A model generated the notes under the pieces. That model did not search any database and was not told the origin of the DNA. It saw nothing but the letters and a program-made list of their open reading frames with translations. From an uncultured Eubacteriales bacterium (GTDB taxonomy: Bacteria > Bacillota > Clostridia > Peptostreptococcales > Anaerovoracaceae), in the NCBI GenBank assembly GCA_902775345.1, contig CACYLW010000008.1, positions 1-64,000 of the forward strand: a stretch of 64,000 bases of DNA. The letters are read 5' to 3'. Positions 2,695 to 15,980 of this stretch are shown piece after piece (position 1 is the first letter of the stretch; each line of letters opens with the position of its first letter). The position numbers and the translations under genes were made by a program.

Positions 2695-2901
2695 ATACCC
2701 ACGTTATTTAAAGTAAAAACTGCATTCTCCCCTAATCGTTTCATTCCGTTTCTCAAGTCTTCTGTTGCTTCTTCTTTCGTATACATAGTTATCTATAAAT
2801 GCTGTCCTATTTTCTCTCTGGTTATTATAGTTTGTATATAGTCAAAAGAACAGCCAACTATTCATCGAGTGTATCCGGCATAGTTCTGACATCTCCGCAT
2901 A

Positions 2902-2931
2902 AAAAAGCCGTTGGAATTCCAACGGCTTTTT
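2902..2931. terminator. Perfect 30-bp palindromic intrinsic terminator, probably the original guaA terminator
   Basis: The arms AAAAAGCCGTTGGAA and TTCCAACGGCTTTTT are exact complements, with A- and T-tracts that allow termination in both directions. It lies 11 bases beyond the distal copy of the guaA stop-codon sequence. I infer that it is the terminator guaA had before the islands separated the two. Confidence 0.8.
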
Positions 2932-2941
2932 AATATTTCGT

Positions 2942-2961
2942 ACTATTCGAACTCTATCGTG
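2942..2961. repeat. guaA-end-like direct repeat, distal copy (att-like site A)
   Basis: ACTATTCGAACTCTATCGTG matches the guaA stop region at 15008-15027 at 19 of 20 positions. On the minus strand both copies read ...S-T-I-E-F-E-stop. I interpret it as the far boundary of a composite island inserted at the guaA 3' end. Confidence 0.6.
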
Positions 2962-3437
2962 GAAACAGCGTTCTTCATTAGGGACAATATCTCATCATCT
3001 ATAGAAACATCCTCTATTTTCTTTTTGAACTCAAAGGTCGAAAACGCTTCTAACACTTGTCTAATAATGTTTCCAATATAAAGCTCATGTTCTGCAGCAT
3101 TGCCATTTGCATAGTCATAAACCAGCTCTAATAGAGTAGTATATTCATTGCGTTTGTTGACAAATCTAATTACCTGATTGTTTCGTAACTCTTTTGGTGA
3201 ATACGTAAAACGACCATGTCCATTGAACTTCCTGTTGCAATCATCTATTAACTCCGTACACATCTTTCCGACATCAACGGCTGTAAATAAATCATGTGTC
3301 ATAATCAATGCTCTGGAGTCAGGATTTCCAAGCAAATAGTTTTCCAACTCAAGTTTTAAATATGATAAAATACCTACCCTGTTTTCCAGATCATAGCTGG
3401 AGACAGGATCGTCAATAACAAGCAGGTACCGCTTCTC
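2943..3437 (-). pseudogene. AAA-type ATPase, 5'-truncated C-terminal remnant
   Basis: The open frame begins after a TGA at 3438-3440 and encodes a Walker B region (YLLVIDDPVSSYD, about residues 4-16) and then SRALIMTHDLF, the sensor-like H-D motif of RecF/SMC-like AAA ATPases such as the AAA_13/RloC group. The Walker A part and everything before it is missing, so the protein cannot be an active ATPase. An internal TTG at 3347 could start a shorter peptide. The last residues, V-S-T-I-E-F-E, are identical to the end of GuaA, because the frame runs into att-like site A. It was probably a defence or accessory gene of the outer island. Confidence 0.65.
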
Positions 3438-3476
3438 TCATTATCCAAAATGCTGACACACAATCAGCATAGAGTC

Positions 3477-3698
3477 TCATTTTTTCTTTTCTCTGAATTT
3501 TGCCGGATATAGTGGTGTTGTTGGATTATCCAGGGACTTTTCCCTCTCTCCATTTAGATATGCCTGATATCGGTCAGGATGAAGATCAATATAATGTCTA
3601 ATGACTGGGCTGATTTCTGAAAGCCGTACAGCTATGGCTTCAGCCTTCTCTTCTGAAATCCTCGCTGCATTTCGTTTGTCCTCATAATACCCTGCCAA
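3477..3698 (-). CDS. Small hypothetical protein
   Basis: This is a 73-aa hydrophilic frame with a TTG start at 3698, 8 bases after the stop of the transposase fragment. It shows N-A-A-R-I-S-E-E-K-A-E-A-I and HYIDLHPDRYQAYL segments and a basic tail. No domain is recognised. The frame stays open a few codons upstream of the TTG, so it may itself be a truncated gene in this remnant-rich tract. Confidence 0.35.
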   Translation of the reverse strand: MAGYYEDKRNAARISEEKAEAIAVRLSEISPVIRHYIDLHPDRYQAYLNGEREKSLDNPTTPLYPAKFREKKK

Positions 3699-3706
3699 AG
3701 AATCAG

Positions 3707-3991
3707 TCAGTTCAGCCTCCGCTTAAATGAAATTTCTCCAAGTTCTGTGAGTATACATCTCGGGCGGTCCTTCTCCTTGAGGACTAGACCCATTTCTTTT
3801 CTGGTACTCTTGTCCTGGCGGAAGGACTCATTCATATACTTGATCAAGGTCTCAAGGATATTCCTGCTTAGTTCATCACTGTCTTTCTTCAGTGCGCTTG
3901 CTGCTGCATCCAAGTCTGTGATGTTAAATGCATGTTTTGTAAAAACTTTTTCCAAATATGCTTCTACATAGTGTATAATTTCATTGTTCAT
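3707..3991 (-). pseudogene. ISLre2/UPF0236-type transposase, N-terminal fragment
   Basis: The 94-aa frame ends in a segment of the form D-K-S-T-R-K-E-M-G then T-E-L-G-E-I-S-F-K-R-R, matching the beginning of ISLre2-family (UPF0236) transposases, where an RDKxRY...K-T-L-F-G-E-V-x-Y-x-R-R pattern precedes the catalytic domain. The frame stops right after this point and no catalytic domain follows, so it is a truncated transposase. An inverted repeat begins at the base after its start codon. Family assignment is from motif memory. Confidence 0.55.
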
Positions 3992-4055
3992 AAATAGAGA
4001 GCGACTCCTTTCTTGGTTTTGAACGACTTTATTTTACAGGAGTCATTCTCTATTT
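3992..4055. repeat. 18-bp inverted repeat beside the ISLre2-like fragment
   Basis: AAATAGAGAGCGACTCCT (3992-4009) and AGGAGTCATTCTCTATTT (4038-4055) are complementary at 16 of 18 positions around a 28-base spacer. The repeat lies immediately upstream of the transposase fragment. It may be the IS end structure or a hairpin that blocks read-through into the IS. Confidence 0.5.
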
Positions 4056-4157
4056 TTTTATTCTTTTTTTCCGCTCCTGGGCGGGTCCGTCCTGGGTGGG
4101 GTGTAAAAGCGCGTGCTCTTACTTCTTCAAAAACTCCACAATTTCTTTACACTATCT

Positions 4158-4190
4158 CAAAAAGAGGAGAAGGCCGCACGAATGCGGCCT
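4158..4190 (-). terminator. Intrinsic terminator of the heptad-repeat/MMPL operon
   Basis: On the minus strand AGGCCGCA-TTCG-TGCGGCCT forms an 8-bp GC-rich stem (4171-4190). It is followed by a pyrimidine-rich run ending in five T. It lies about 65 bases past the stop of the 4255-6708 gene. Confidence 0.65.
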
Positions 4191-4254
4191 TTAGGATTTA
4201 TCAGCACAGATTCCAGAAGGAACCTGAGTTGATGTCACTTGTTTTGATGCATCT

Positions 4255-6708
4255 CTACTGCGCTTTTACTGCTCCGGACTTGAAGATTATCTTGCTTTCT
4301 CCCTTCATGTCGTCTGCTTTACCGCCGATGAAGTCCGCCTTTGCGGATGCATCGGAAAGCGCATTGAGGCGTGCGATCATATAATCTATATCCATCTCGC
4401 TGAGGCTTGATACAAGTTTCTGTATGCCGTCTCTGTTGAATGCATACATTCCGTCATAGAGAGTCTCTGCTCCGCCCGCGAGTTTTGCGGTTCCTTTTTT
4501 GAACTTGGCTGTTCCGTCTGCAAGCTGTCCGGCTCCGCTGCTTAGTTCATCGGCGCCTGCCTGCAATTTGCCTGCTCCGTCTTTAAGATTGGAAGCGCCT
4601 GAATTAAGATCCGATGCTCCCTTATTCAGTGCAGCAGCCCCGTTATCGAGGTCCTTTGCACCGGCTTTGAGCTTTGCAGCTCCGTCATTTGCATCGGACG
4701 CTCCTTTGGCCAGAGCCTTCGCTCCTTCATCAGCATCGGATGCTCCCTGTGCAAGAGCCTTTGCTCCGTCATCAGCATCGGATGCTCCCTGTGCAAGAGC
4801 CTTTGCTCCGTCATCGGCATCGGATGCTCCCTGTGCAAGAGCCTTTGCTCCGTCATCGGCATCTGACGCTCCCTGTGCAAGAGCCTTTGCTCCGTTGTCG
4901 AGGTCGGCAGCTCCTGTCTGCACGCCGATAATTCCTTCTTTGAGTGCCGGAAGCTTGGATCCGAGCTGATCGAGTCCTCCCGAAACCTGCTGCTCTCCCT
5001 CATAAGCGCTGTCAACTCCGCCTACGTATCCTTTTACAGCTGCAGTATAATCATTCGGCATCGGCAGCTGAGATCTCAATTCCTGAAGCTTGGCTTTGGT
5101 TGCTTCGTCTGTCTCAGCATCTATCATCGCGTCCAGTGCATTTGCATACTGCTCCATTCCTTCCTGGTATGCGTCGCTTGCACCGACAATTGCGCTGCCG
5201 TTTGAGCCTTTGGAGCTCAGCGACTGAAGTCCTGCATCCAGGTTTGTCATCCCGGCTTTAATCTGGCCGTATCCTTCCTCAAGAGCTGCAGCTCCTTCCG
5301 CCAATGCGTCCGTGCCGGCTTTCAGCTGTCCGCTTCCCTCGGCGAGATTTGCGCTGCCTTCTTTTAGAGCACCCGTGCCCTCGGAAAGTGATGCGCTGCC
5401 TTCTTTTAGAGCACCCGTGCCCTCGGAAAGTGATGCGCTGCCTTCTTTTAGAGCACCCGTACCCTCTGAAAGCGATGTGCTTCCTTCCTTGAGCTGCGAG
5501 GTTCCGGTTGAAAGGGCCGCGCTTCCTTCCTTAAGCTGCGAAGTTCCGTCAGCAAGGTCGGAACTCCCGCTCTTAAGAGCTCCCGTTCCGTCCTTCAGGC
5601 TCTTTGTTCCTGCAAGCGCCTTTTGGGTTCCCTGCGCAAGCTGCACCGATCCGTCCGAAAGAGACTTTGCTCCGCTGCTCAGCTCTGCACTTCCGCTGCT
5701 GAGGCTTCCGGCCCCGGCCTTAAGTTCCCCTGCTTTGCTGTCAAGCGTGGCAGCTCCGTCCGCAAGTTCCGATGCTCCGCTTACCAGCTGATTTGATGCG
5801 CTGCTGAGCTGATTCATGGCTCCTTTGAGCTCGCTCACTTTATCCTGCAAAGATCCCGTATCCGAGAGATCCATGTCTGCGAACATTCCACTGAGAGCAA
5901 CTGTATATGTTCCGTCGATTTCGAATTTATCCGTATATGCTTTGATGCTGACGCTCTCCGGTATGTCGAGAGCGGATATATCTGTGTTGAGATTGCTCTT
6001 CAGGTTAGGAAAAGCTATTCCGAGGCAAACGCATTTGCTACCGTCGTCTATCACTTTACCGCCTTCCACTTCGATGTCCGTGAAGTGTTCATCATCCAGA
6101 AGCACTCCGCTCGCCATGGTAAAAGGCGTCTTGAATGTGTATCCGCCGGATTCCACGCTGTCATTTACCTTGTAGCTGAATCTTATCACTACATGTCCTT
6201 TCCGGCCTGCGATCTCGGATGCGCTCATCTTCTGACCGTCCAGATAATATGAGATGTTCACCTTTACGGGAAGCTCTTTGTCCGTATTTCCCTTGTACTT
6301 GATGTCCGAGCCGCCTGCGTCCCATACGAGCTTGTTTCCGTCCTGTTTGAACGATTTATCGTTTGCGGTATTCTCTATGTCCTTGAGGCTTGAGACATCA
6401 TTTATCTTATCCTGGGATTTGCCGTTTCTGATCCATTCTGCGACGGATGTTTTTGTGATGTTTCCGTCCGCGTCCATGACCACATATTCGGTCTCTTCCT
6501 TGAACATCTCTCCTTCCGAATCGGAGGATGTCAGCAGGTTCGGATATTCTTTTTCAATCGCTTCCTGAGTCTCCGTACTGGTCTCGGGCTCGTTCTCAGC
6601 AAACGATTCCATCACGTTCAGTCCCCACAGCGCCGTGACGGAGAGCATGGCAACCGCAAGACATATCGACATGTATCTTCCGGTTTTCTTTCTGTTTCTT
6701 TGTTTCAT
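4255..6708 (-). CDS. Exported heptad-repeat (X-X-X-L-X-X-G) protein partnering an MMPL exporter
   Basis: The protein is 817 aa. A signal sequence or N-terminal anchor spans about residues 12-37 (hydrophobic stretch then SFAENE). Residues 40-280 form a polar extracytoplasmic domain. Residues about 285-750 are a long run of L-x-x-G heptads of the LKEGSASLSEG and ALAQGASDADDG type, predicted to form an extended helical stalk. This X-X-X-Leu-X-X-Gly repeat class is known from YhgE/Pip-like and MMPL-associated surface proteins. The gene follows the MMPL gene by about 40 bases, so the two probably form one envelope system. There is no C-terminal transmembrane helix, unlike YhgE. The DNA contains nearly identical 42-bp tandem copies, so length may vary between strains. 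Confidence 0.75.
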   Translation of the reverse strand: MKQRNRKKTGRYMSICLAVAMLSVTALWGLNVMESFAENEPETSTETQEAIEKEYPNLLTSSDSEGEMFKEETEYVVMDADGNITKTSVAEWIRNGKSQDKINDVSSLKDIENTANDKSFKQDGNKLVWDAGGSDIKYKGNTDKELPVKVNISYYLDGQKMSASEIAGRKGHVVIRFSYKVNDSVESGGYTFKTPFTMASGVLLDDEHFTDIEVEGGKVIDDGSKCVCLGIAFPNLKSNLNTDISALDIPESVSIKAYTDKFEIDGTYTVALSGMFADMDLSDTGSLQDKVSELKGAMNQLSSASNQLVSGASELADGAATLDSKAGELKAGAGSLSSGSAELSSGAKSLSDGSVQLAQGTQKALAGTKSLKDGTGALKSGSSDLADGTSQLKEGSAALSTGTSQLKEGSTSLSEGTGALKEGSASLSEGTGALKEGSASLSEGTGALKEGSANLAEGSGQLKAGTDALAEGAAALEEGYGQIKAGMTNLDAGLQSLSSKGSNGSAIVGASDAYQEGMEQYANALDAMIDAETDEATKAKLQELRSQLPMPNDYTAAVKGYVGGVDSAYEGEQQVSGGLDQLGSKLPALKEGIIGVQTGAADLDNGAKALAQGASDADDGAKALAQGASDADDGAKALAQGASDADDGAKALAQGASDADEGAKALAKGASDANDGAAKLKAGAKDLDNGAAALNKGASDLNSGASNLKDGAGKLQAGADELSSGAGQLADGTAKFKKGTAKLAGGAETLYDGMYAFNRDGIQKLVSSLSEMDIDYMIARLNALSDASAKADFIGGKADDMKGESKIIFKSGAVKAQ
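4699..4908. repeat. Five tandem 42-bp units inside the heptad-repeat gene
   Basis: Units begin at about 4699, 4741, 4783, 4825 and 4867. Each encodes two heptads (ALAQGASDADDGAK with small changes). The central copies differ by only one or two bases, which suggests recent slippage or gene conversion. Confidence 0.85.
5351..5476. repeat. Three tandem 42-bp units inside the heptad-repeat gene
   Basis: Units start at 5351, 5393 and 5435. The first two are identical and the third has a few changes. Each encodes SLSEGTGALKEGSA, again two heptads, so gain or loss of a unit keeps the frame. Confidence 0.85.
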
Positions 6709-6750
6709 TTCCTTTCCTCCTCGATGTACCGATACATCATTTCATCTCCG

Positions 6751-8868
6751 TTATCTTGCGTCCCTGAGCCCTATAGTCGTCTTGCAGATCAGTTTATCCA
6801 ACGCCATCAGAAGCGACGGAAGCAGCAGTATTACCGTGAACATACTGATCAGCGCACCTCTGGCCATAAGCGTGCAGAAAGTGCTTATTATCGCTATGTT
6901 GGAATAGATCGATACGCCTATCGTGGCTGTGAAAAATCCCAGCGCACTGACTATAATCGACGGTATCGATGCGCTCGTGGCCGTCTCGACCGCCTCTCTT
7001 CTGTCTTTACCGCCTATCCTCTCTTCCTTGTATCTGGTCGAAAGGAGTATCGCGTAGTCCACGGTCGATCCGAGCTGTATGGTGCTGATGCAGACCGGCA
7101 CTATGAACGGCAGCTCAAGTCCCGTAAAGCCCGATATGCCGAGGTTCACTATGATGGAAAACTCTATGGCCGCCACAAGTATGAACGGAAGCGAGACGGA
7201 TTTGAGCACGAATAATATGATCACGAAAACCATTGCTATGGATATCGCGCTGACCACCTGGAAATCCTTATTCGTGATTTCGATGAGGTCCTTGGTGGCC
7301 GGGCCTTCTCCTATCAGGGTCGCGCCCTTGTCGTACTCGTTTATTATTTCGTTAATTTTGTCTATCTGCTCGTTGCACTCATCCGTGGAGACTTTATAAG
7401 ATGAATTTACAAGAATCATCTGATGCTTATCTCCCAGAAGAGCTCCTCCGAGCTCATCAGGCAGCATCTCCTTTGGAATCGAAGTTCCCATGATTGCGTC
7501 CAGACCGATAACGCTCTTTACTCCGTCCAGCTTTTCGATTTCATCGCACATGGCCCGCCCGTCCTTGGCTTTAAGGTCCGCATCCGCGATTATTATGTGC
7601 GAGGTTCCTATGTCGAAGTCCTCCTGCAGTTTGTTGTTGGCTATCAGGAAGCCTATATCCTCTTCATCCATATTATCCGCATTGCTGGCAAACATCTTGG
7701 CGAAGTCATATACTACATTCTGCTGATTGTAGAAGTGGACTGCCGGCACAAGCATCACGAGGAATATGATGATATATACCGCGTATCTGCTCGTGAGATG
7801 TTTCGCAAGTCCGTCCATTTTCGGAATCAGCGATCTGTGTCGCGTCCTTCTGAGCAGCTTCGTGAATCTAAGTATCATGACAGGCAGCACCGTTACGCTT
7901 GCCACGACGCCGAAGACGACTCCCTTGGCCATTACTATGCCTAGGTCTTTACCCATTGTGTAGGTCATAAAGCACAACGCCAGGAATCCCGCGATGGTCG
8001 TGATAGAGCTTCCCGTGACTGAAGTCAGAGTATCGTTTATGGCGTGTGCCATGGCTTCTTTTTCGAACTCTCTCTCCTGCTCCTCGTCTTTTAATTCCCC
8101 GCGGGCATCGAGCCTCTCGGTATATCTGTGCCAGAGGAATATCGAATAATCCATCGTGACGGCAAGCTGCAGCACTGCGGCTATAGCCATGGTGATGAAG
8201 GAAATCTCTCCGAAGATTATGTTGCTTCCCATGTTGTAGAATATGGCCATTCCTATGCTCAGCAGGAAAAGCACCGGCGCGGCATATGAGTCGAGCAGCA
8301 CCATCATAGCAACGAGCGAGAGCACTACAGCCACGCCCACGTATTTGACCTCTTCCCTCTCGCACAATTTTTTGAGGTCCAAAACGAGAGAGCTCATGCC
8401 GGATATGTACGCGTCTTTGGTCAATATGCCTCGTATGGTCTCCACGGCGTTGAGCGTCTCCTCCGATGAAGTCGAAGAATCAAAAAACACCACCAGCATG
8501 GATGCATCCGGATTGCTTATGCTCTGCTGCAATACATTCGGGAGCATCTCCTCGGGTACCGATGGGTCTATCAATTGTTCCAGATTTATTACCGTGTCTA
8601 CGTTGTCTACGGCCTCGATGTCCTTTGCAAGCGCCGACACCTCATCCGTTTTCATATTCTCCACTATAACCATGGAGAATCCGCCTTTGCCGAATTCATC
8701 GAGCAGGACGTTCTGTCCCTGCACGGTCTCGATATCGTCAGGCAGATAATAAAGCATGTCGTAATTGATCCTCGTCGCTATCATTCCGATAATCGACGGA
8801 ATCAAAAGAATAAGCGATACCAAAAATATCGCTTTTCTGTGCTTCACTACTTTAGAACCGAAATCCAT
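6751..8868 (-). CDS. MMPL/RND-superfamily membrane exporter
   Basis: The protein is 705 aa with two matching halves, each with one N-terminal helix, an extracytoplasmic domain (about residues 35-180 and 375-540) and a five-helix bundle. T-M-D-Y-S-I-F-L-W-H-R in half one and S-T-V-D-Y-A-I-L-L-S-T-R in half two are the intramembrane Asp-Tyr motifs that carry protons in MMPL proteins. Actinobacterial relatives export lipids; in Firmicutes the substrate is usually unknown. The gene is first in an operon with the heptad-repeat protein and diverges from a TetR regulator, a common layout for regulated exporters. Confidence 0.85.
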   Translation of the reverse strand: MDFGSKVVKHRKAIFLVSLILLIPSIIGMIATRINYDMLYYLPDDIETVQGQNVLLDEFGKGGFSMVIVENMKTDEVSALAKDIEAVDNVDTVINLEQLIDPSVPEEMLPNVLQQSISNPDASMLVVFFDSSTSSEETLNAVETIRGILTKDAYISGMSSLVLDLKKLCEREEVKYVGVAVVLSLVAMMVLLDSYAAPVLFLLSIGMAIFYNMGSNIIFGEISFITMAIAAVLQLAVTMDYSIFLWHRYTERLDARGELKDEEQEREFEKEAMAHAINDTLTSVTGSSITTIAGFLALCFMTYTMGKDLGIVMAKGVVFGVVASVTVLPVMILRFTKLLRRTRHRSLIPKMDGLAKHLTSRYAVYIIIFLVMLVPAVHFYNQQNVVYDFAKMFASNADNMDEEDIGFLIANNKLQEDFDIGTSHIIIADADLKAKDGRAMCDEIEKLDGVKSVIGLDAIMGTSIPKEMLPDELGGALLGDKHQMILVNSSYKVSTDECNEQIDKINEIINEYDKGATLIGEGPATKDLIEITNKDFQVVSAISIAMVFVIILFVLKSVSLPFILVAAIEFSIIVNLGISGFTGLELPFIVPVCISTIQLGSTVDYAILLSTRYKEERIGGKDRREAVETATSASIPSIIVSALGFFTATIGVSIYSNIAIISTFCTLMARGALISMFTVILLLPSLLMALDKLICKTTIGLRDAR

Positions 8869-8959
8869 TATTTATCCCTTTCTCCTCAGTTTTCAACCAT
8901 AGGTATGGTAAGCCTAAGCGCAGTCGACTTGAATGGGCAGTTTGAAAAGCCTGTCGCAT

Positions 8960-8979
8960 TTTTGGGCAAATTCGCAAAA
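8960..8979. promoter_or_regulatory. Candidate TetR operator between mmpL and tetR
   Basis: TTTTGGGCAAATTCGCAAAA is an imperfect 20-bp palindrome with perfect TTTTG/CAAAA outer arms. It lies in the 163-bp divergent intergenic region. Its position suits autoregulation and repression of the exporter, but no close consensus is available. Confidence 0.4.
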
Positions 8980-9031
8980 TTGTCTGACTTTCGCATGCAA
9001 ATGGGTTAGAATTGTCTGAGGAGGATTAGTT

Positions 9032-9598
9032 ATGTCGAACAGTAAGATTACAGCGCGCGCCATACAGGATGCTTTTCTCGCGGAGCTGAACGATAGGCCG
9101 CTTTCGAAGATCAGTGTTAAGGATATTTCGGACAGATGCGGCATCAACCGCAACACCTTTTATTATCATTATGATAATGTGCCTGATTTGCTTGAGAAAT
9201 TATGTCAGGGCGAACTCGATAACATCGTGGCTCAGTATCCGAGTTTCAGCTCTGTCGAAGAGTGCCTCGGAGCCGCCATGCGGCTTGCCAACGAACATAA
9301 GAAAGCCATCCATCATATCTACTACTCCGCAAGCCGCGAGACTTATATTTCTTCGCTTTGGAGAATCTGCGATTATGTAATCTCCAAATATGCCGACACC
9401 GCATTTCCCGACATCCCGATTTCGGACAAGGACAGGGAGCTCTTTATCAGATATCACAAATGCGCATGCTTCGGTCTCATAGTGGACTGGATAGGTTCGG
9501 GCATGGATGATTCGTATGCGGAAGGGATCTCCAGAATTTTTGAACTAAAAAAAGGAAGCGAGGATCTCATAATCAAGAACGCCATCGCTTCCTACTGA
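9032..9598 (+). CDS. TetR/AcrR-family transcriptional regulator
   Basis: The protein is 188 aa. Residues about 8-55 form a TetR HTH: S-K-I-S-V-K-D-I-S-D-R-C-G-I-N-R-N-T-F-Y-Y-H-Y carries the recognition helix and the hallmark F-Y-Y-H-Y. The C-terminal helical domain (about 75-180) is the ligand and dimer domain, close in style to the DhaS/TetR_C_8 group. GAGGAGG lies before the ATG. Its divergent position implies control of the MMPL and heptad-repeat operon. Effectors cannot be predicted. Confidence 0.85.
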   Translation: MSNSKITARAIQDAFLAELNDRPLSKISVKDISDRCGINRNTFYYHYDNVPDLLEKLCQGELDNIVAQYPSFSSVEECLGAAMRLANEHKKAIHHIYYSASRETYISSLWRICDYVISKYADTAFPDIPISDKDRELFIRYHKCACFGLIVDWIGSGMDDSYAEGISRIFELKKGSEDLIIKNAIASY

Positions 9599-9606
9599 TC
9601 ATCTGC

Positions 9607-10196
9607 CTATTTCAGGGTGATTTTCATGTATTTTTTCTTGCCTTTTTGGAGGACGAGTTCGCCGTTTTCGAAGTCGGCCTCGGTGACCGCATATCTCTTG
9701 TCGGTGATCTGAGTGCCGTTGATGCGGGCACCACCGCCCTGGATGGTGCGGTAGGCTTCGCTCGTCGAAGGCTCGAGGCCGACTTCCTTTCCGTGAACGA
9801 GCTTGGTGACCTCGAAAGCGAGTATCTCCTTGGCTTTGTTGATCTCTGCACCCTCGAGAGCCGACAGTCTGTTAACCTCATCCATCGGGAGGAAGGTCAG
9901 CATGCGGAGGCACTTGTTTACATCAGCATCCGCGACATTTCTCCAGTACTGAAAGAAGTCATATACGGAGCACTTGCTCTCGTCGAGCCAGAGCGCACCT
10001 TTCTGAGTCTTACCCATCTTGATGCTTTCGCTTGTGGTCAGAAGCGCGACGGTCAGGCCGTATACTTCCTTACCGCAGGTCTTCCTGGTCAGGTCCACGC
10101 CGGCGATAATATTGGACCACTGGTCATTGCCTCCGAACTGAGCCTTGAGATCGAAGTCGCGCGCCATAACCATGAAGTCATATGCCTGTATACCGA
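9607..10196 (-). pseudogene. tyrS: Tyrosyl-tRNA synthetase, 3' half only
   Basis: The sequence encodes the C-terminal part of TyrRS: Q-A-Y-D-F, the tyrosine-pocket G-G-N-D-Q-W-S-N-I, a KMSKS-type loop (I-K-M-G-K-T) and the C-terminal S4-like RNA-binding region. About the first 190 residues, including the HIGH-type motif and most of the active site, are absent. Upstream of the Q-A-Y-D-F codons the homology switches to a TnsA-like gene remnant at about 10,186-10,196. The fragment cannot encode an active synthetase, so an intact tyrS must exist elsewhere. It may be island cargo or displaced chromosomal DNA. Confidence 0.8.
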
Positions 10197-10276
10197 TCCA
10201 GCAGTCCATCACCTTCAACTGCCTCAAACGGCACATTGCATCTGAACTCTGTGATATCCTCTCGCCCTTTGCTCAT
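10178..10276 (-). pseudogene. TnsA-like gene remnant fused to the tyrS fragment
   Basis: A 32-codon frame reads REDITEFRCNVPFE (residues 5-18) and later D-R-Y-T. The intact gene at 14047-14403 has REDISEFRCNVPFE and E-R-Y-T at the same spacing. The frame ends where tyrS begins, overlapping it in another frame. It shows that the outer island once carried the same TnsA-like gene near its guaA-proximal end. Confidence 0.65.
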
Positions 10277-10375
10277 GGCGTGCTGCTCGCGCCCCTCTCT
10301 CCCCTCACACACCCCTCTCTCCAATTCTCCTTTCTTGGTTAGAGATCTCGTTACATGATCATGGCGAGAGCCTAT
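10277..10375. other. Non-coding stretch upstream of the tnsA-like remnant
   Basis: The minus strand carries a purine-rich tract (GGGAGAGAGGGG) and no recognisable gene. The purine tract may belong to the lost 5' part of the TnsA-like gene, but alignment is not clear. Confidence 0.3.
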
Positions 10376-10617
10376 GCGCGGAGTTCCTGAAACAAAGTGT
10401 TTTCAACGGTTTGAAGTTGGATTGATTTCTCTTCACCAAGATCGATTCGAGTTCCGGGCCGAGACTGTCGGCCGGAAATCGGTCGATAAAAAAAGACCTT
10501 AGGAGAGAAAGGTACTCTCTCCTAAAGTCTTAGGTTATTGACTGATTTATGGCTTAGGTAGGATATTGTTTTTTGCCTTTTAGCCGCTAATCAATGTTGC
10601 CTCGTGACATCTCTTCT
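10376..10617. repeat. Island proximal end, copy 1 (diverged duplicate of 14755-15007)
   Basis: Shared blocks in the same order as copy 2 include a CCTGAAAC/TCTGAAAC block, GGTTTGAAGTTGGA, CTCTTCAC, a C-GAGACT-C block, GAAATCGG, a strong hairpin, a TGATTTATG/TAATTTATG block and TGCCTCGT just before the att-like site. Overall similarity is partial but collinear over about 240 bp. No reading frame is shared. Confidence 0.65.
10493..10531. other. Long hairpin in proximal end copy 1
   Basis: AGACCTTAGGAGAGA (10494-10508) pairs with TCTCTCCTAAAGTCT (10516-10530) with one mismatch and a 7-base loop, after a run of seven A. An equivalent hairpin with different bases sits at 14883-14924. It could be a terminator insulating the island end or part of a structured RNA. 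Confidence 0.6.
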
Positions 10618-10630
10618 CTATTCGAATTCT
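10618..10630. repeat. att-like site C between the two islands
   Basis: CTATTCGAATTCT matches CTATTCGAACTCT of sites A and B at 12 of 13 positions. The minus strand reads ...E-E-F-E-stop at the same place as the guaA stop. It is flanked on the high-coordinate side by the end of the inner island and on the low-coordinate side by the proximal end of the outer island. Confidence 0.5.
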
Positions 10631-10710
10631 TCAAGGGTTTCCATGATAACGGGTTCAAATGCGATTAATATAGGCTTTCTAAGCCTCCTCAGCAACTTAT
10701 TTCGCCTTGT
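10618..10710 (-). pseudogene. C-terminal remnant reading into att-like site C
   Basis: A 30-codon frame opens after a TGA at 10711-10713 and reads RRNKLLRRLRKP, then E-P-V-I-M-E-T-L-E-E-F-E-stop. No family is recognised. As at site A, the leftmost frame of the island runs into the att-like repeat and borrows its E-F-E-stop. Confidence 0.35.
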
Positions 10711-10713
10711 TCA

Positions 10714-11009
10714 TAGGGTTTTGAAAGCTTTTAGTATCAAATTAGTATCACTCCATATATCAATTTGTTGAACAATTTCTATCCCTGAATTCCAATCTCT
10801 TCAACAATCGCTATTTTGAAGCAATTATCATATATGCTGATTGCTGTGCTTTGCATTACGGAATCTCCTGCTGCAGATCAAGTCATGTAAATAATTCTTT
10901 TCACTTTAACTACGTTTAAGGAAGTAACGTTACACTATACTTGTCAAACGAAATAGACAAAACTTTTCTTCATAATAAACCTTCCATATAAATACCTAAA
11001 ATACCAATG
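10714..11009. other. AT-rich stretch without a recognisable gene
   Basis: About 300 bp with stops in all frames and no clear promoter. A short palindrome GTAACGTTAC at about 10925-10934 is the only local structure I see. Confidence 0.4.
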
Positions 11010-11050
11010 ACAATAACAGCTCTGTCAGAGAAACACTCTCGGCAGAGCTG
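11010..11050 (-). terminator. Intrinsic terminator after the transporter remnant
   Basis: On the minus strand CAGCTCTG...CAGAGCTG (11043-11050 with 11017-11024) forms a stem extended by GAGA/TCTC, followed by TTATTGTCATT. It lies 27 bases beyond the stop at 11077. Confidence 0.55.
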
Positions 11051-11076
11051 CTGTCATTTTAGTCCCAAAGCCTTTG

Positions 11077-11385
11077 TTATGCCCACGCAGCCATTATACC
11101 TGCGAATACTACTGATACTACTGATACCGAAACCATTCCTGCGATAATCATCTTAGGTACGAGATGTTTCTTGAGCATTTCGACTTCTTCTTCGCTTTCA
11201 CCAACAGCGTTGGCAACTTCTGTAGGAACTATGAGTGTTCCCGGGAATCCGAAAAGTGCAGTTACGCCAAGTACAAATGACATGTACCAACTCTCTCCAA
11301 GAAGCTTTCCAACAAGGATACTTGGTCCTACGTTGCTAAAGGTTCCCTGATTGCCAAACTTCTCCTGAATAAACGGAAGAGCAAA
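11077..11385 (-). pseudogene. Membrane transporter C-terminal fragment
   Basis: The frame encodes about 100 residues with two hydrophobic spans around G-P-S-I-L-V-G-K-L-L and M-I-I-A-G-M-V-S-V-S-V-V, linked by a G-F-P-G-T-L-I-V-P-T-E-V loop and an acidic stretch. It resembles the end of an integral-membrane transporter whose family I cannot name. Homology begins where the hsdR frame loses its own sequence (about 11385), so the 5' part was lost in the same rearrangement. The ATG at 11400 lies within hsdR sequence and is not a real start. Confidence 0.5.
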
Positions 11386-13822
11386 ACTTATATCTTTCAT
11401 CTGCTGTCAGCTTGTTATATCTATCAGCAACAGGTTTGAGCACACTGGTCATCCGGCCCATTGCTTTTGAATCCTGTTTGTTATAGCTGAAGTATTCAGC
11501 AGCAAAAGCATCGATATCAGCATCGGAGTATACTGAGTATCCGCGCAAATCATGCTGCACCTGATAGAGCAGATCAGTGTTGACTTCACTTTCCAGCATT
11601 GTTTCCTGATAAAATGGCTGGAAAGCTTCCTGAATGTCCTCCTGCTTATTTATAAAGTCCAGTACAAAGGTATCCGTTTTGCCTGGGTAAGTTCTGTTCA
11701 GACGTGACAATGTCTGGACTGCTTTGACACCCTTGAGTTTCTTGTCCACTATCATGGTATGAAGCAGCGGCTCATCAAATCCCGTCTGATACTTCTCAGC
11801 CACCACAAGGACATTGAAGTTTTCATGGAATTCAGTCTTTGTCTGGGATTCTCCAATATGGCTGCCATCTTTGCGGACGTTCAGCTTCGGTTCTGTATAT
11901 TCTTCTCCTCCGTCATTTACAGAGCCCGAGAATGCAACCAGAAGGTCGATATCCTTATATCCCTTCTCCTCAATATATCGTTTGCATTCCTTAAAATATC
12001 GAACTGCTGCAAGACGGGATGACGTAATGACCATCATTTTCCCTCTGCCGCCTATCTTGAATCGGGTTGTTTCCATATAGGTTTCAACGATGATCTGTGC
12101 TTTCTGGCTGATGTTATAAGGATGTAGTTCTTCGAACTTTCTGATGACCTTTGCCGCTCTGCTGCTTGGAACATCAGGATTGTCTTCAATCGTCTTGGCG
12201 ATCCTAAAGCAAGTGTCATAGGTCATGTAGTTCTGAAGAACATCCAGAATGAAGCCTTCTTCAATGGCCTGTCTCATGCTGTAGATATGGAACGGATGGA
12301 AGCTACCATCCGGATATTCAGTTCCAAACATCTCCAAAGTCGTTCCCTTCGGAGTCGCTGTAAAAGCAAAGAATGAAAGGTTCTTATGCCTGCCGTGAGT
12401 GATCATCTCCTGAACAAGCTTATCAGTAGGATCGATATCTTCTTCGGCCTTGCCTTCGATTTCAGCATATTCTCTGAGGGCATCCTCTGTATCCGCGAGA
12501 GCTGCCTTGAGTTTCATGGCAGATGTTCCAGTCTGAGATGAATGCGCCTCGTCAACGATGACAGCATAATTTCTGCCCTTAGCCTCATCTACTTCCTGAT
12601 AGATGACTGGGAACTTCTGCAGCGTCGTTACGATGATGCGCACGCCAGCATTGAGGGCATCTCTGAGGTGGCCACTATTCTTATCCTCACCTATTGTCTC
12701 GACTGCTCCGAGCGTATGATCAAATCCGGAAATCGTCTCCTGCAGCTGAGCATCCAACACGGTTCTGTCGGTGACAACTACGACGCTGGAGAAGATAGGA
12801 TTATTGTCTTTATCATGCAAGGATGCCAGGCGATACGCTGTCCAAGCAATAGAATTGGACTTCCCGGATCCGGCTGAATGCTGGATTAGGTAATTATGTC
12901 CTGCTCCGTTTTCGGATACATGCGCTATCATCTTCCGTACTACGTCTAGCTGATGATAACGAGGGAATATCAGAGTCTTCTTTCTGATGATCTTCTCTGT
13001 TCTATCAGGCAGCAGTTTCTTTTCTTCGACTATCTGCAGATGTATGAACTTCTGCAGAATATCCATCATGCTGTCTTTCCGGAACACTTCTTCCCAGAGG
13101 TATGCCGTCGGATAACCATTCGGATTAGGCGGGTTTCCTGCCCCACCATCATGGCCAGCACCGTTGCTGCCTTGATTGAACGGTAGGAAATAAGTATCCT
13201 TTCCAGCAAGCTTGGTAGTCATCCACACTTCGGTATGATCTACTGCAAAGTAGCCGAGGATACGCTTGTTGAATTGGAAGCAGATCTCCCGTGGATCACG
13301 GTCATACATCCACTGTTTCTTAGCATTGTCTACGGTCTGACCTGTATACTGATTTTTCAGTTCGAAAGCAAATACCGGAATACCATTAAGCGCAATAACC
13401 AAATCGACGCTCTTCTTGCTGTCGGCACTGTAATACCACTGGCGATAGCAGGCTGCATTATTCTTGGCATATAGTGCTACCGCAGTCTGATTCAGTGATG
13501 ACTCAGGCTTGAAGTAGCATACTCTGAACTTGATACCGCGATGTTTGAAGCCATGACGGAGAACTGAAACAAGGCCATACATATCACAAGCATTGTTGAA
13601 TGCCACGCAAAACTTTCGTATGGTATCGATCTTGTTTGCGTTCTCGAAGCGCGCCCACTCCTTTGGCTGAGTTCTCTGAACAAAATCGATCAGCGAATTA
13701 ATATAAAGTCCAATCTTTGGATCATAACTATCATCGCCCTTGTTATAGCCGCCAGCAGGAGATATCAAAGCTGCTTCGATATCTGTTTCAAAGCGTTTCT
13801 CTTTTGTGTCATCTATAGACAT
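11336..13822 (-). CDS. hsdR: Type I restriction enzyme R subunit, 3'-truncated
   Basis: The 828-aa frame has an N-terminal HSDR_N nuclease domain (about residues 40-220; G-I-P-V-F-A-F-E-L-K-N carries the E-x-K motif) and a superfamily 2 helicase motor with Walker A HSAGSGKS (about 316-323), DEAH box V-D-E-A-H-S-S and later motif VI-type Q-x-x-x-R-x-N-R (Q-T-L-S-R-L-N-R). AGGAGG precedes the ATG. The normal C-terminal helical domain that contacts HsdM/HsdS is missing. After Y-K-F the frame reads 15 foreign codons out of frame with the transporter remnant and stops. No hsdM or hsdS is present, so restriction is not expected. Confidence 0.8.
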   Translation of the reverse strand: MSIDDTKEKRFETDIEAALISPAGGYNKGDDSYDPKIGLYINSLIDFVQRTQPKEWARFENANKIDTIRKFCVAFNNACDMYGLVSVLRHGFKHRGIKFRVCYFKPESSLNQTAVALYAKNNAACYRQWYYSADSKKSVDLVIALNGIPVFAFELKNQYTGQTVDNAKKQWMYDRDPREICFQFNKRILGYFAVDHTEVWMTTKLAGKDTYFLPFNQGSNGAGHDGGAGNPPNPNGYPTAYLWEEVFRKDSMMDILQKFIHLQIVEEKKLLPDRTEKIIRKKTLIFPRYHQLDVVRKMIAHVSENGAGHNYLIQHSAGSGKSNSIAWTAYRLASLHDKDNNPIFSSVVVVTDRTVLDAQLQETISGFDHTLGAVETIGEDKNSGHLRDALNAGVRIIVTTLQKFPVIYQEVDEAKGRNYAVIVDEAHSSQTGTSAMKLKAALADTEDALREYAEIEGKAEEDIDPTDKLVQEMITHGRHKNLSFFAFTATPKGTTLEMFGTEYPDGSFHPFHIYSMRQAIEEGFILDVLQNYMTYDTCFRIAKTIEDNPDVPSSRAAKVIRKFEELHPYNISQKAQIIVETYMETTRFKIGGRGKMMVITSSRLAAVRYFKECKRYIEEKGYKDIDLLVAFSGSVNDGGEEYTEPKLNVRKDGSHIGESQTKTEFHENFNVLVVAEKYQTGFDEPLLHTMIVDKKLKGVKAVQTLSRLNRTYPGKTDTFVLDFINKQEDIQEAFQPFYQETMLESEVNTDLLYQVQHDLRGYSVYSDADIDAFAAEYFSYNKQDSKAMGRMTSVLKPVADRYNKLTADERYKFCSSVYSGEVWQSGNL

Positions 13823-13823
13823 A

Positions 13824-14060
13824 TTAGCCTCCTATGCCAAAAAGTTTGAAGAGCAGAAGCTCGACAAGTCCACCAAGAATTGCCCCGATAATGAGCATCA
13901 TAATGTCATCAGTAATTGTCTCGGCATCCGGAATAGATGTTGCCTCTATCCATTGAGGCATTGTGAGCTTCATGCAATCAATTACGAGAACTTCCTGTTC
14001 AGATACATCAAGTACCCTATATATCTTGTCTTGATTCTTTATTAGTTCATTTTTCTTCAT
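13824..14060 (-). CDS. TnsB-like N-terminal fragment with a foreign membrane tail
   Basis: The start at 14060 overlaps the end of the TnsA-like gene by 14 bases. Residues 1-50 (MKKNELIKNQDKIYRVLD..., then LVIDCMKLTMPQW) resemble, from memory, the first domain of clostridial TnsB-like DDE transposases, which begin with a small beta domain and a D-C-x-K-x-T-M-P-x-W motif. The HTH and DDE domains are absent. Instead the frame changes at about residue 50 to one hydrophobic helix (MMLIIGAILGGLVELLLF) and ends at G-I-G-G. I infer a deletion that joined the tnsB 5' end to the tail of another gene. The stop region supplies the hsdR Shine-Dalgarno. Function as encoded is doubtful. Confidence 0.45.
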   Translation of the reverse strand: MKKNELIKNQDKIYRVLDVSEQEVLVIDCMKLTMPQWIEATSIPDAETITDDIMMLIIGAILGGLVELLLFKLFGIGG

Positions 14061-14403
14061 CGACAACAATCCCCCAATCTGTTACACCTCTCCCGTTCCA
14101 ATAATCTTTTGACAGATCCAGTAGTCTTGACATTTTTGGTCTTGTGATGTTCTTCCTCCAAAGGCATTCACGAACCATAATCTCACCATCAACCTTTACA
14201 CAGACAAAATCGGTTGTGTACCGTTCCAGTTCATCACCTTCATCTACTTCAAACGGCACGTTACACCTGAACTCGCTTATATCCTCCCTCTTCTGAAGCA
14301 GTTTTGCGTAGGCAGTCTGTACAGCATCGTATGTTTTGCAGACCTCCGGACACTTGATGAAATGATTTTTCTCGCATCGATCCTTGATTTTTCTGTTCTT
14401 CAT
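14047..14403 (-). CDS. TnsA-like PD-(D/E)xK-type small protein
   Basis: The 118-aa protein begins MKNRKIKDRCEKNHFIKCPE. Its second half reads E-R-Y-T-T-D-F-V-C-V-K-V-D-G-E-I-M-V-R-E-C and ends in S-K-D-Y-W-N-G-R-G-V-T-D-W-G-I-V. The Y-T-x-D-F ... E-x-x order and the terminal Y-W-x-x-x-G-x-x-W-G-I-V helix/strand match TnsA endonucleases of Tn7-like elements. The expected E-V-K is R-E-C here, so the catalytic Lys is replaced and activity is uncertain. It overlaps the TnsB-like frame, as tnsA/tnsB pairs often do. It is the first gene inward from the guaA-proximal end. Confidence 0.55.
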   Translation of the reverse strand: MKNRKIKDRCEKNHFIKCPEVCKTYDAVQTAYAKLLQKREDISEFRCNVPFEVDEGDELERYTTDFVCVKVDGEIMVRECLWRKNITRPKMSRLLDLSKDYWNGRGVTDWGIVVDEEK

Positions 14404-14419
14404 CGCTTCCTCCTCTTTT

Positions 14420-14586
14420 CCGGATTATCTCCCGGATTTTGATTTGATTTCCCGGATTTTGTTCCGGATTTTCAATATCCGGCCGGATTTTGAAAATAAT
14501 CCGGGTTATCAAAATAATGAGATAACTTGACAAACCATTGAAATCACTGCATCAGAGCCACACTCAGATACTGTTCCCGGATTTTG
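14420..14586. repeat. Array of CCGGATTTTG-type direct repeats upstream of the TnsA-like gene
   Basis: CCGGATT occurs in direct orientation at about 14420, 14432, 14452, 14464, 14483 and 14577, four or five times as CCGGATTTTG or close to it. One inverted AATCCGGG lies at about 14498-14505. Repeats of this kind could be transposase- or replication-protein-binding sites, or operators of the tnsA-like promoter they surround. Confidence 0.65.
14505..14533 (-). promoter_or_regulatory. Candidate promoter of the TnsA-like gene
   Basis: On the minus strand TTGTCA (14528-14533) and GATAAC (14505-14510) are spaced by 17 bp, about 100 bp before the ATG at 14403. It lies inside the CCGGATTTTG array, so bound protein could control it. 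Confidence 0.45.
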
Positions 14587-14722
14587 TTCTGGAAATCATA
14601 CTATGTCCTTGTGTAACGCTCTCTATCCTGTGATGTAACTTTTGTTATCGTCTCTTAACAAGAATTTGGTACATCTTTCACGTACCGATATTTCTTACTA
14701 AACTTCTGTGTACCTAACCCAT
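14587..14722. other. Island end interior without a gene
   Basis: No coding frame or clear structure is visible. It separates the CCGGATTTTG array from the palindrome and the conserved proximal end. Confidence 0.4.
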
Positions 14723-14752
14723 TATTTCTAACGGTATATACCGTTAGAAATA
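14723..14752. repeat. Perfect 30-bp palindrome
   Basis: The arms TATTTCTAACGGTAT and ATACCGTTAGAAATA are exact complements with no loop. It has no T-tract beyond the stem, so an operator, cruciform or recombinase-binding site fits better than a terminator. No copy is visible in the outer island. Confidence 0.8.
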
Positions 14753-14754
14753 AA

Positions 14755-15007
14755 ACGCGCGCGTCGCACAGAAGCTCTGAAACGAAGTAATTCCAATGGT
14801 TTGATGTTGGAAGCATATCTCTTCACGGGTCCTTTTATGAGTCTCGGGGCGAGACTACGTGGCAGAAATCGGCCAAGAAAAAAAGGACTTGGGGAGAGAG
14901 AAAGTACTCTCTCCAAAAGTCCTTGGTTTGTTGGCTAATTTATGCCTTTGGGACGATATTAATTATTGCCCCTTACGCTATTAAACACTGCCTCGTATCA
15001 GTTTTGC
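14755..15007. repeat. Island proximal end, copy 2 (next to guaA)
   Basis: This is the non-coding end of the inner island, collinear with 10376-10617. The two copies share spaced blocks and the hairpin position and end at the same distance from the att-like site. The high divergence implies that the islands were separate arrivals and not a recent duplication. Confidence 0.65.
14883..14924. other. Long hairpin in proximal end copy 2
   Basis: AAGGACTT (14883-14890) pairs with AAGTCCTT (14917-14924), and GGAGAGAG (14893-14900) with CTCTCTCC (14907-14914), broken by one GG/AA internal mismatch. Its bases differ from the hairpin at 10493-10531, yet both helices are maintained. Confidence 0.6.
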
Positions 15008-15027
15008 ACTATTCGAACTCTATTGTG
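15008..15027. repeat. att-like site B at the guaA stop codon
   Basis: ACTATTCGAACTCTATTGTG covers the last codons and stop of guaA. It matches site A at 2942-2961 except for one base. The 3' end of guaA is a known insertion point for genomic islands in several Firmicutes. Confidence 0.6.
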
Positions 15028-15980
15028 CTTACCGGTTTATCCGAGATGTCCCACATTACTCTGTTGACTCCCGGTACTGTAGCGATAATACGGTCTCTCA
15101 TCCTCTTCAGCATGTCCCAAGGGATCTCCACCGACTCTGCTGTAACGGCATCTACTGTGTTGATTGCCCTGATGATGACCGGCCATCCCATGTATCTCTT
15201 TCCGTCCTTGATTCCTGTCGACTGCATGTCAGGAATGACTGCGAAGTACTGCCAAGGAACATTCTCCATCTTGCCGATCTCTTCTCTTACGATGGCGTCT
15301 GCCTCTCTGAGAGCCTCGAGTCTGTCTCTTGTGATGGCTCCCGTGCATCTTACGCCGAGTCCCGGGCCAGGGAACGGCTGTCTGTAGACCATGCTGTCAG
15401 GAAGTCCGAGAGCTGAGCCGACTACTCTTACTTCGTCCTTGTAAAGCAGCTTTACAGGCTCTACGAGTTCAAACTGAAGGTCTTCAGGAAGTCCGCCGAC
15501 ATTATGATGAGCTTTTACTCCGTCGGATTCGAGAATGTCAGGATAGATGGTTCCCTGTCCGAGGAATGCGATGCCGTCGAGTTTTGCCGCTTCTTCTGCG
15601 AACACGTCGATGAACTCCTTGCCGATGATCTTGCGCTTTGTTTCAGGATCGTCCACTCCTGCAAGCTTGTCGAGGAATCTGTCAACAGCGTCAACGTAGA
15701 TGAGGTTTGCTCCGAGCTCTTCCCTGAACACCTTGATCACCATTTCAGGCTCGCCCTTGCGGAGAAGTCCGTGGTTTACATGAACGCAGACCAGATTGTC
15801 GCCGATGGCCTTGATCAGCAGCGCAGCTACTACACTCGAGTCAACGCCTCCGGACAGAGCAAGAAGGACCTTCTTGTCTCCAACCTGTGCCTTGATCTCG
15901 GCGAGCTGCTCCTCGATGAATTTGTCAGCGAGTGCACGTGTTGTGATACGTTCCATTGTTTCCGGTCTGATGTCTGCCAT
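15009..15980 (-). CDS. guaA: GMP synthase, ATP-pyrophosphatase subunit without glutaminase domain
   Basis: This enzyme adenylates XMP and aminates it to GMP. The 323-aa protein has the PP-loop L-S-G-G-V-D-S-S (about residues 43-50), the G-Q-G-T-I-Y-P-D segment and the C-terminal dimerisation domain with R-Q-P-F-P-G-P-G-L and the final P-V-S-T-I-E-F-E. Usual bacterial GuaA is about 515 aa because a class I glutaminase domain precedes the synthetase. Here that domain is absent and the ATG at 15980 has its own GGAGG, so this is a stand-alone subunit as in archaeal-type split enzymes. No glutaminase partner is seen in the window. It follows guaB by 42 bases. Its 3' end is the proposed island insertion site. 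Confidence 0.92.
   Translation of the reverse strand: MADIRPETMERITTRALADKFIEEQLAEIKAQVGDKKVLLALSGGVDSSVVAALLIKAIGDNLVCVHVNHGLLRKGEPEMVIKVFREELGANLIYVDAVDRFLDKLAGVDDPETKRKIIGKEFIDVFAEEAAKLDGIAFLGQGTIYPDILESDGVKAHHNVGGLPEDLQFELVEPVKLLYKDEVRVVGSALGLPDSMVYRQPFPGPGLGVRCTGAITRDRLEALREADAIVREEIGKMENVPWQYFAVIPDMQSTGIKDGKRYMGWPVIIRAINTVDAVTAESVEIPWDMLKRMRDRIIATVPGVNRVMWDISDKPVSTIEFE

Follow-up and report, generated by a model that had tools for sequence, protein, structure and literature searches.

The 3' end of a short guaA gene as a probable shared dock for Tn7-like transposons and tyrosine-integrase islands in an uncultured Eubacteriales bacterium

Why should the last codons of a single gene occur three times, in the same orientation, on one bacterial contig? 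The question is raised by a 64,000-nucleotide sequence from an uncultured Eubacteriales bacterium (positions 1 to 64,000 of CACYLW010000008.1, assembly GCA_902775345.1), referred to here as the window, which belongs to contig C8 of a 2.25-Mb genome (G000; G-numbers designate the genomes compared and L-numbers the loci). A short form of the purine-synthesis gene guaA lies on its minus strand, and sequences resembling the 3' end of this gene occur at three sites designated A, B and C, the last being the present guaA end (Table 1). We propose that the locus probably represents stacked relics of two kinds of mobile element, Tn7-like transposons and tyrosine-integrase islands, that share the guaA 3' end as a dock. 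The initial annotation had postulated successive insertions at one attachment point; repeated insertion at that gene end has good support, whereas a single attachment reaction does not hold, as sites B and C lie 8 nt before Tn7-like ends accompanied by remains of transposition (tns) genes.

The 9-mer CTATTCGAA occurs at positions 2943, 10618 and 15009 of the window, on one strand throughout, and each site reads E-F-E-stop on the minus strand. Chance would yield 0.61 such 9-mers and three were reached in 2 of 100 shuffles, so the 9-mer alone carries little weight. A 21-bp query allowing up to 3 mismatches matched only A and C in the window, two matches being reached in none of 100 shuffles, and these were also the sole genome-wide matches to a 20-bp pattern allowing up to 2 mismatches. 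The recurrence of the guaA stop region at three sites, as first described, thus stands for A and C (88% over 26 bp) and for the E-F-E-stop at all three, while site B shares just 9–12 bp with the guaA end.

Beside B and C, a stretch of about 250 bp had been described as duplicated, and this proved correct: positions 10387-10630 and 14777-15021 are 72.7% identical over 249 bp, and a separate 60-bp piece (10202-10261 versus 14227-14286) is 83% identical. The duplicated stretch is a Tn7-like transposon end. Both copies begin with a TGTCACGAGGCAAC-type sequence, each 8 nt past a guaA-type stop, and have a TGT-type end with repeated binding-like motifs, the B copy matching the genus-wide pattern for such ends exactly and the C copy only in degenerate form; the C-side stretch also holds a hairpin, which we read as a terminator. 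Remains of tns genes lie on each side, a tnsA-like gene and a tnsB stub behind C and a tnsA scrap behind B. A matrix was made from eight such ends, the B end included; three ends not used in it, namely the C end, the right end of G010 and a second end of G033, scored 16.9, 21.7 and 24.8 bits, respectively, and nothing scored above 14 bits in one single-strand shuffle per sequence.

A complete tns operon lies behind such an end in relatives. In G029, contig C21 starts exactly at the terminal TGTCAC and shares a 99-bp overlap with the contig of guaA; its genes specify, in this order, a small TnsA, TnsB, TnsC and TniQ. The same gene order is found with guaA on a single contig in G457, a genome of another family whose genes were assigned by similarity to G029, and in G639 the guaA and tns contigs overlap exactly by 285 bp. 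The G029 proteins exceed the Pfam cut-offs in the case of TnsB (PF09299, 27.4 bits; cut-off 21.7), TnsC (TniB, PF05621, 47.2 bits; cut-off 22.4) and TniQ (PF06527, 69.0 bits; cut-off 27), and the best solved relatives of TnsB and TniQ are Tn7 TnsB (E 5.6e-44) and Tn7 TnsD (E 4e-12). TnsA of G029 and G457 had no Pfam match, that of G639 (L176) reached 18.4 against the PF08722 cut-off of 26.5, and a TnsA profile compared with solved structures returned two chance matches only (E 0.38 and 0.56).

The G029 TnsB occurs in 4 of 349 genomes of the family (G029, G284, the window stub and a very weak match in G143) and in 25 of 391 genomes of the class, comprising five at 50–58% identity, one partial at 45%, the window stub and 18 at roughly 22–33%. 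A close TnsB subfamily spans eight genomes (G029, G284, G457, G543, G631, G639, G422 and, in part, G499), and in four of these (G457, G029, G639 and G422) a guaA-type end is the position occupied. Judged by this position, the Tn7-like element would home to guaA.

An element with paired ends was found in G010, where a 12,359-bp unit 8 nt past the guaA stop has inverted ends and ACAAA on both sides, a 5-bp duplication. Among its cargo are an ion-channel protein bearing a RyR domain and another protein whose TIR domain is of the ThsB type. These results bear on a first reading, in which tyrosine-integrase islands alone were responsible, A, B and C being attachment (att) sites and the 250-bp stretch the islands' left end. 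The guaA gene end is a known target of such islands, Tn5801 (PMC4844618) and GIsul2 (PMC8239412) being precedents, an integrase family is present behind guaA, and the guaA-end copies are invariably in guaA orientation within the scanned loci. However, the 250-bp stretch begins with a TGT terminus followed by tnsA and tnsB remains. In G029 an end of this kind precedes the complete operon, and in G010 one has an inverted partner and the 5-bp duplication. The G029 contig led us to give up the purely integrase reading, which we regard as unlikely.

The converse, that Tn7-like transposition alone produced all three copies because a mimic of the guaA end near the right end of the element makes a fresh landing site, would agree with the equal spacing of 7–9 nt between internal guaA-end copies and the next transposon end. 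Against it, the G010 unit (L086) has one guaA-end match, guaA itself, and no second; no transposon end follows site A; and copies with as little as ~12–13 nt of guaA, as in G422, seem short for a TnsD-type reader. We consider this explanation quite unlikely.

The spacing itself is regular, with 12 of the 13 ends in hand falling 7–9 nt past a guaA-type stop, although this count is biased, many of the ends having been found by looking behind guaA, and a genus-wide pattern search, for which guaA is not the point of departure, is therefore the fairer test. The genus set consisted of 47 genomes, that of the window included. Allowing up to 3 mismatches, the end pattern was found at 10 places in 7 of the 47 genomes, and all 8 places with 0–2 mismatches sit at guaA-type ends, two of these being the single G029 end on overlapping contigs; the 2 places with 3 mismatches look chance-like, as do 4 control matches.

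The guaA-end copies were also counted by orientation. From the genus, 34 loci were fetched, of which L114 lacked a full match and was skipped, leaving 33, several cut short by contig ends. Together with the window these amount to 530,315 bases, in which a degenerate guaA-end motif, one that does not take in site B, matched 42 times in guaA orientation and never in reverse. Thirty-four matches are guaA genes themselves and eight are extra copies (three in L097 and one each in the window, L089, L091, L095 and L106). In G007 (L097) four guaA ends, counting that of guaA, stand in series with a guaA-type terminator behind the last. A wider set of 79 of 80 loci (L041 was skipped; 1,135,368 bases) gave nine extra forward matches and no reverse match, five of which repeat genus loci, one is a second guaA and three are new (L025, L032 and L034). 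At L025 a Lachnospiraceae guaA end is duplicated 8.3 kb downstream (+8331), the similarity continuing by eye past the stop, and this looks like a clean integrase-type pair. We also considered E-W-E versus E-F-E as a mark of insertion and dropped it, as by eye it tracks lineage only partly.

Filled and insertion-free sites were both found among relatives. The annotation had placed a guaA-type terminator beyond site A and predicted an empty junction joining guaA straight to it; both were recovered in G039, where the counterpart of window positions 2887-2939 (81% identity; G039:C66:3269-3321) lies directly behind guaA (3326-4297). A near-empty site occurs in G018, with metA just 103 bp behind guaA, and the gene order of the window is absent from all 33 genus loci, with their several contig-end truncations. 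Segmental duplication, homologous recombination among guaA-linked sequences or chance, without site-specific insertion, would fit the 9–12 bp shared by site B, the shuffles that reach three 9-mers and the diverged duplicates beside B and C. This is nonetheless highly improbable given the lack of reverse copies in 530 kb, the 7–9 nt spacing, itself a biased count, the less biased genus-wide search, and the filled and near-empty sites, with G010 and G039 in particular disfavouring it.

The second kind of element is indicated by a tyrosine-integrase family (PF00589, 73.8 bits) that lies behind guaA and in its orientation. Among 120 guaA-bearing loci scanned, which partly overlap one another, 12 contain 13 such open reading frames (ORFs), and in 11 of the 12 the integrase starts within ~1.2 kb behind guaA. 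Within the genus, seven genomes have an integrase of at least 41% identity, located 0.9–1.8 kb behind a guaA in all except G038; two of these seven matches have an internal stop and two are partial. In G012 guaA and a guaA-end copy are separated by a broken integrase, with a Tn7-like end 7 nt behind the copy; this layout would be expected had a Tn7-like element first inserted just past the stop and an integrase island then entered at guaA. We read site B as having the same history. Site A, 26 bp at 88%, provides the direct repeat of the guaA end expected at the far side of an integrase island.

As a proposed sequence of events, a Tn7-like transposon with TnsA, TnsB, TnsC and a TniQ/TnsD selector would insert 7–9 nt past the guaA stop with a 5-bp duplication, TniQ probably reading the guaA 3' coding end, and tyrosine-integrase islands would recombine within the last guaA codons, copying the old guaA end to the far side. 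Because each insertion would leave the target of the other kind next to guaA, the elements could stack. Older units would then lie furthest from guaA: A, with the original terminator, may be the oldest guaA end, B may be of intermediate age and carries a Tn7-like end, and C is the present end, with a second, decayed Tn7-like end. Deletion would account for the loss of the integrase, of tnsC and tniQ, of the right ends and of most of tnsB. The two islands in tandem that were first described are a minimum under this history, the most economical version of which appears to involve about four insertions.

Several observations weigh against this proposal. The integrase family matches none of 322 reading frames in the window and no Pfam integrase was found among the 12 island ORFs of at least 60 aa, so that the making of copies A and B by an integrase is something we infer; across G000, none of the PF00589 matches listed (4 of 8) is on C8, and all five serine recombinase matches (PF07508) are on contig C6. 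The C end, at 16.9 bits, is near three chance-like matches in other loci (14.4, 15.0 and 16.1 bits). A left-end matrix scan revealed no right or inverted transposon end in the window; right ends are presumed deleted, which makes the window copies relics rather than transposons. Only G010 showed paired ends together with a duplication, and no tns gene was recognised in that unit; an end at about 51.6 kb of G033:C4 lacks a guaA-type stop. With respect to the operon, the TnsB match to PF00665 is below cut-off, and TnsA was named from its position and because it distantly resembles a Pfam-positive TnsA (30% over 93 residues, E 6.6e-7). In G422 the tns genes sit at a mini guaA-end copy, the real guaA being elsewhere; no guaA-type end occurs within 3,371 bp upstream in G631:C70 or 2,293 bp in G499:C85; the contigs of G543, G284 and G631:C6 end too early to show context; and a Tn7-like end is absent from the 80 bp that follow guaA in G284 (two genes), G631, G543 and G422.

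The selector protein may indicate how the site is recognised. The TniQs of G029, G457, G639 and G422 have in common a C-terminal stretch of ~140 residues at 31–47% identity, and the TniQ of G631:C6 lacks it (11 residues alignable); this is a comparison of four with one, the contig of that one ending too early to reveal its site. Compared with plasmids, TniQ returned 388 records, all below 60% identity and none covering 80% of the query. Upstream of tnsA, an inverted end-like sequence (e.g. TGTTACGGGGCAAA...AAAGGGCAAA) ends 154–237 bp from the gene in seven of eight tns loci (L131, L140, L175, L176, L177, L178 and L179), tnsA lying outside it, although the search pattern itself demanded ACAT at the edge; G457 and the window were negative. 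This sequence is perhaps a TnsB operator or a true second end. A single regular expression recognised no right end on the G457, G029 and G631:C6 contigs. In a bolder joint reading, which as a whole we consider unlikely, a Tn7-like subfamily of gut Clostridia uses guaA as its attTn7; landing just past the stop, it would spare the tyrosine-integrase core, and the guaA end that it reads would be renewed by integrase islands, forming a self-renewing double dock. This reading further takes the inverted ends upstream of tnsA and the tns-less paired-end unit of G010 to mean that a resident tns operon may act in trans on a mobile cargo cassette.

Table 1. Coordinates and properties of the features at the guaA-linked locus of the window.
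Feature	Position	Strand	Remarks
guaA-type intrinsic terminator hairpin	2902..2931	.	Same layout immediately after guaA in G039
Site A, older guaA 3' end	2936..2961	-	guaA terminator behind
134-aa ORF ending, in frame, in the guaA end of site A (...VSTIEFE-stop)	2943..3347	-	Weak PADLOC PDC-S06 match, E 0.00096
UPF0236-like fragment	3707..3991	-	Just below cut-off (23.7 versus 24.3 bits)
Heptad-repeat protein (xxxLxxG repeats), 817 aa, cargo, open	4255..6708	-	
MMPL-family RND transporter, 705 aa, cargo, open	6751..8868	-	
TetR-family regulator, 188 aa, cargo, open	9032..9598	+	
tyrS 3' fragment (TyrS residues 203-443)	9607..10236	-	
Scrap of second tnsA, adjoining tyrS fragment	10202..10261	-	83% to 14227-14286
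Intact-looking Tn7-like transposon end, starts TGTCACGAGGCAACATTGATTAGC	10387..10609	-	8 nt past site B stop; 36.0 bits (one of the eight ends from which the matrix was built)
Site B, minimal guaA-end copy GAATTCGAATAG	10618..10629	-	
Fragment resembling membrane-protein C-terminus (by eye)	11077..11400	-	No informative Pfam match
Type I restriction HsdR, 828 aa	11336..13822	-	Apparently short at C-terminus
tnsB stub (TnsB residues 1-54, then broken off)	13899..14060	-	59% to G029 TnsB, E 1.6e-15
tnsA-like gene, 118 aa, open	14047..14403	-	81% identical to G029 TnsA-like protein; no Pfam TnsA match of its own
Degenerate Tn7-like transposon end, starts TGATACGAGGC	14777..15000	-	8 nt past guaA stop; 16.9 bits
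Site C, present guaA 3' end	15002..15027	-	88% over 26 bp to site A
Docking gene: short guaA of 323 aa, with the synthetase part but no glutaminase domain	15009..15980	-	

All genes between the sites had been described as accessory or broken. This applies to tyrS and tnsB, which are truncated, and to hsdR, which is apparently short; the tnsA-like gene and those for the heptad-repeat protein, the transporter and the regulator are open. Parts of the transporter, regulator and tyrS block (4763-9789) are 92–98% identical in G016, G030, G032 and G039, four more distant congeners among which the length of the attached tyrS 3' fragment varies. Relative to native tyrS of G017 and G030, the window fragment lacks ~136 bp at 9789/9791. 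As the insertion-free G039 has part of this block elsewhere (C51, 95%), the block is probably mobile cargo, and we dropped it as part of the mechanism, copies of its parts with variously truncated tyrS ends being found in these relatives. Positions ~11054-11320 match G019 (100%), G026 (99%), G038 (98%), G018 (86%), G022 (76%) and G003 (73%), and positions 10871-11060 have 82–83% matches in several congeners; three of these lie less than 150 bases from where a contig starts, which points to a dispersed repeat.

The window GuaA is 99% identical to its counterpart in a Mogibacterium sp. metagenome-assembled genome (MAG) from sheep colon. Short-form relatives (at least 82% identity) occur in 36 of the 47 genus genomes, 24 of which additionally have a full-length guaA (~50–56% identity). 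Across the 80 best loci, short GuaA proteins lacking the glutaminase domain, at 72–99% identity, come from MAGs labelled Clostridia, Bacteroidales, Prevotella, Erysipelotrichaceae and Thermoplasmata, which reflects either wide horizontal spread or mis-binning.

On the far side of the locus, bases 1-99 of contig C2, reversed, exactly overlap bases 1-99 of the window, and C2 continues with metA, metY and full-length guaA, the order found behind short guaA in G018, G037, G044 and G010. In relatives, neighbouring genes received the names MetA, MetY, LysR, glutamine synthetase, AsnB, PyrG and CarB after inspection of their sequences by eye. Where metA is visible (8 of the 33 genus loci), its interval from short guaA is 103 bp in G018, 1.6 kb in G037, 3.8 kb in G017, 4.9 kb in G044, 12.4 kb in G010 and 13.1 kb in G012, and 9.9 kb in G034 and 10.3 kb in G015, where full-length guaA itself lies in between; if the join of C8 and C2 holds, it is ~16 kb in the window genome. 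Full-length guaA precedes metA in G034 and G015 (L091 and L092) and follows metY in G018, G037, G044 and the window genome, a shift that is a rearrangement near the dock. A LysR-glutamine synthetase-AsnB set lies directly behind short guaA in L091, L095 and L098, with PyrG as well in L091 and L095, again by eye; guaA-end copies follow the set at +6.8 kb in L091 and +6.6 kb in L095, and these metabolic genes are perhaps carried as an island.

The proposed element resembles Tn7, which inserts in attTn7 at glmS, and Tn7-like elements in its TnsA-B-C-TniQ/TnsD order, its TGT ends with repeated binding-like motifs, its varied cargo, its position just past the stop of a conserved gene and the 5-bp duplication of G010. 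It differs from them in that the site is guaA, only 7–9 nt past the stop, and in that TnsA is 111–118 aa without a match to the TnsA C-terminal family, the window copies moreover being dead. Named Tn7-like sites include glmS, tRNA genes, parE, comM, guaC, yciA, ffs and rsmJ (PMC11406308, PMC10293859), and guaA is not named as one in the accessible portions of these two sources or of PMC8649781. No publication linking Tn7-like elements, TniQ, TnsD or TnsB with guaA or GMP synthase was found among the open-licence papers listed, a scope that leaves novelty unproven; PMC8239412 mentions guaA and Tn7-like elements in connection with different elements. Integrase islands in guaA are already known, namely Tn5801 (PMC4844618), which leaves an 11-bp direct repeat at the guaA 3' end, and GIsul2 (PMC8239412, PMC9376610). 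The window island uses the same gene end but no integrase was found in it.

Further analogues are cis-mobilizable elements (CIMEs) and the tandem accretion of islands at one att site, with segments that lack an integrase, are flanked by att copies and are stacked in tandem. The window locus is similar in each of these respects, but its stack appears to mix integrase-type and Tn7-type insertions.

If the proposal is correct, guaA would join the short list of Tn7-like attachment genes, in gut Clostridia, and the TniQ C-terminal stretch common to the guaA-type elements would make target recognition testable. The locus would also be an actual example of a single gene end that could serve two unrelated insertion machineries, neither of them damaging the other's target, and a shared, undamaged gene end would be a simple reason why such loci keep growing.

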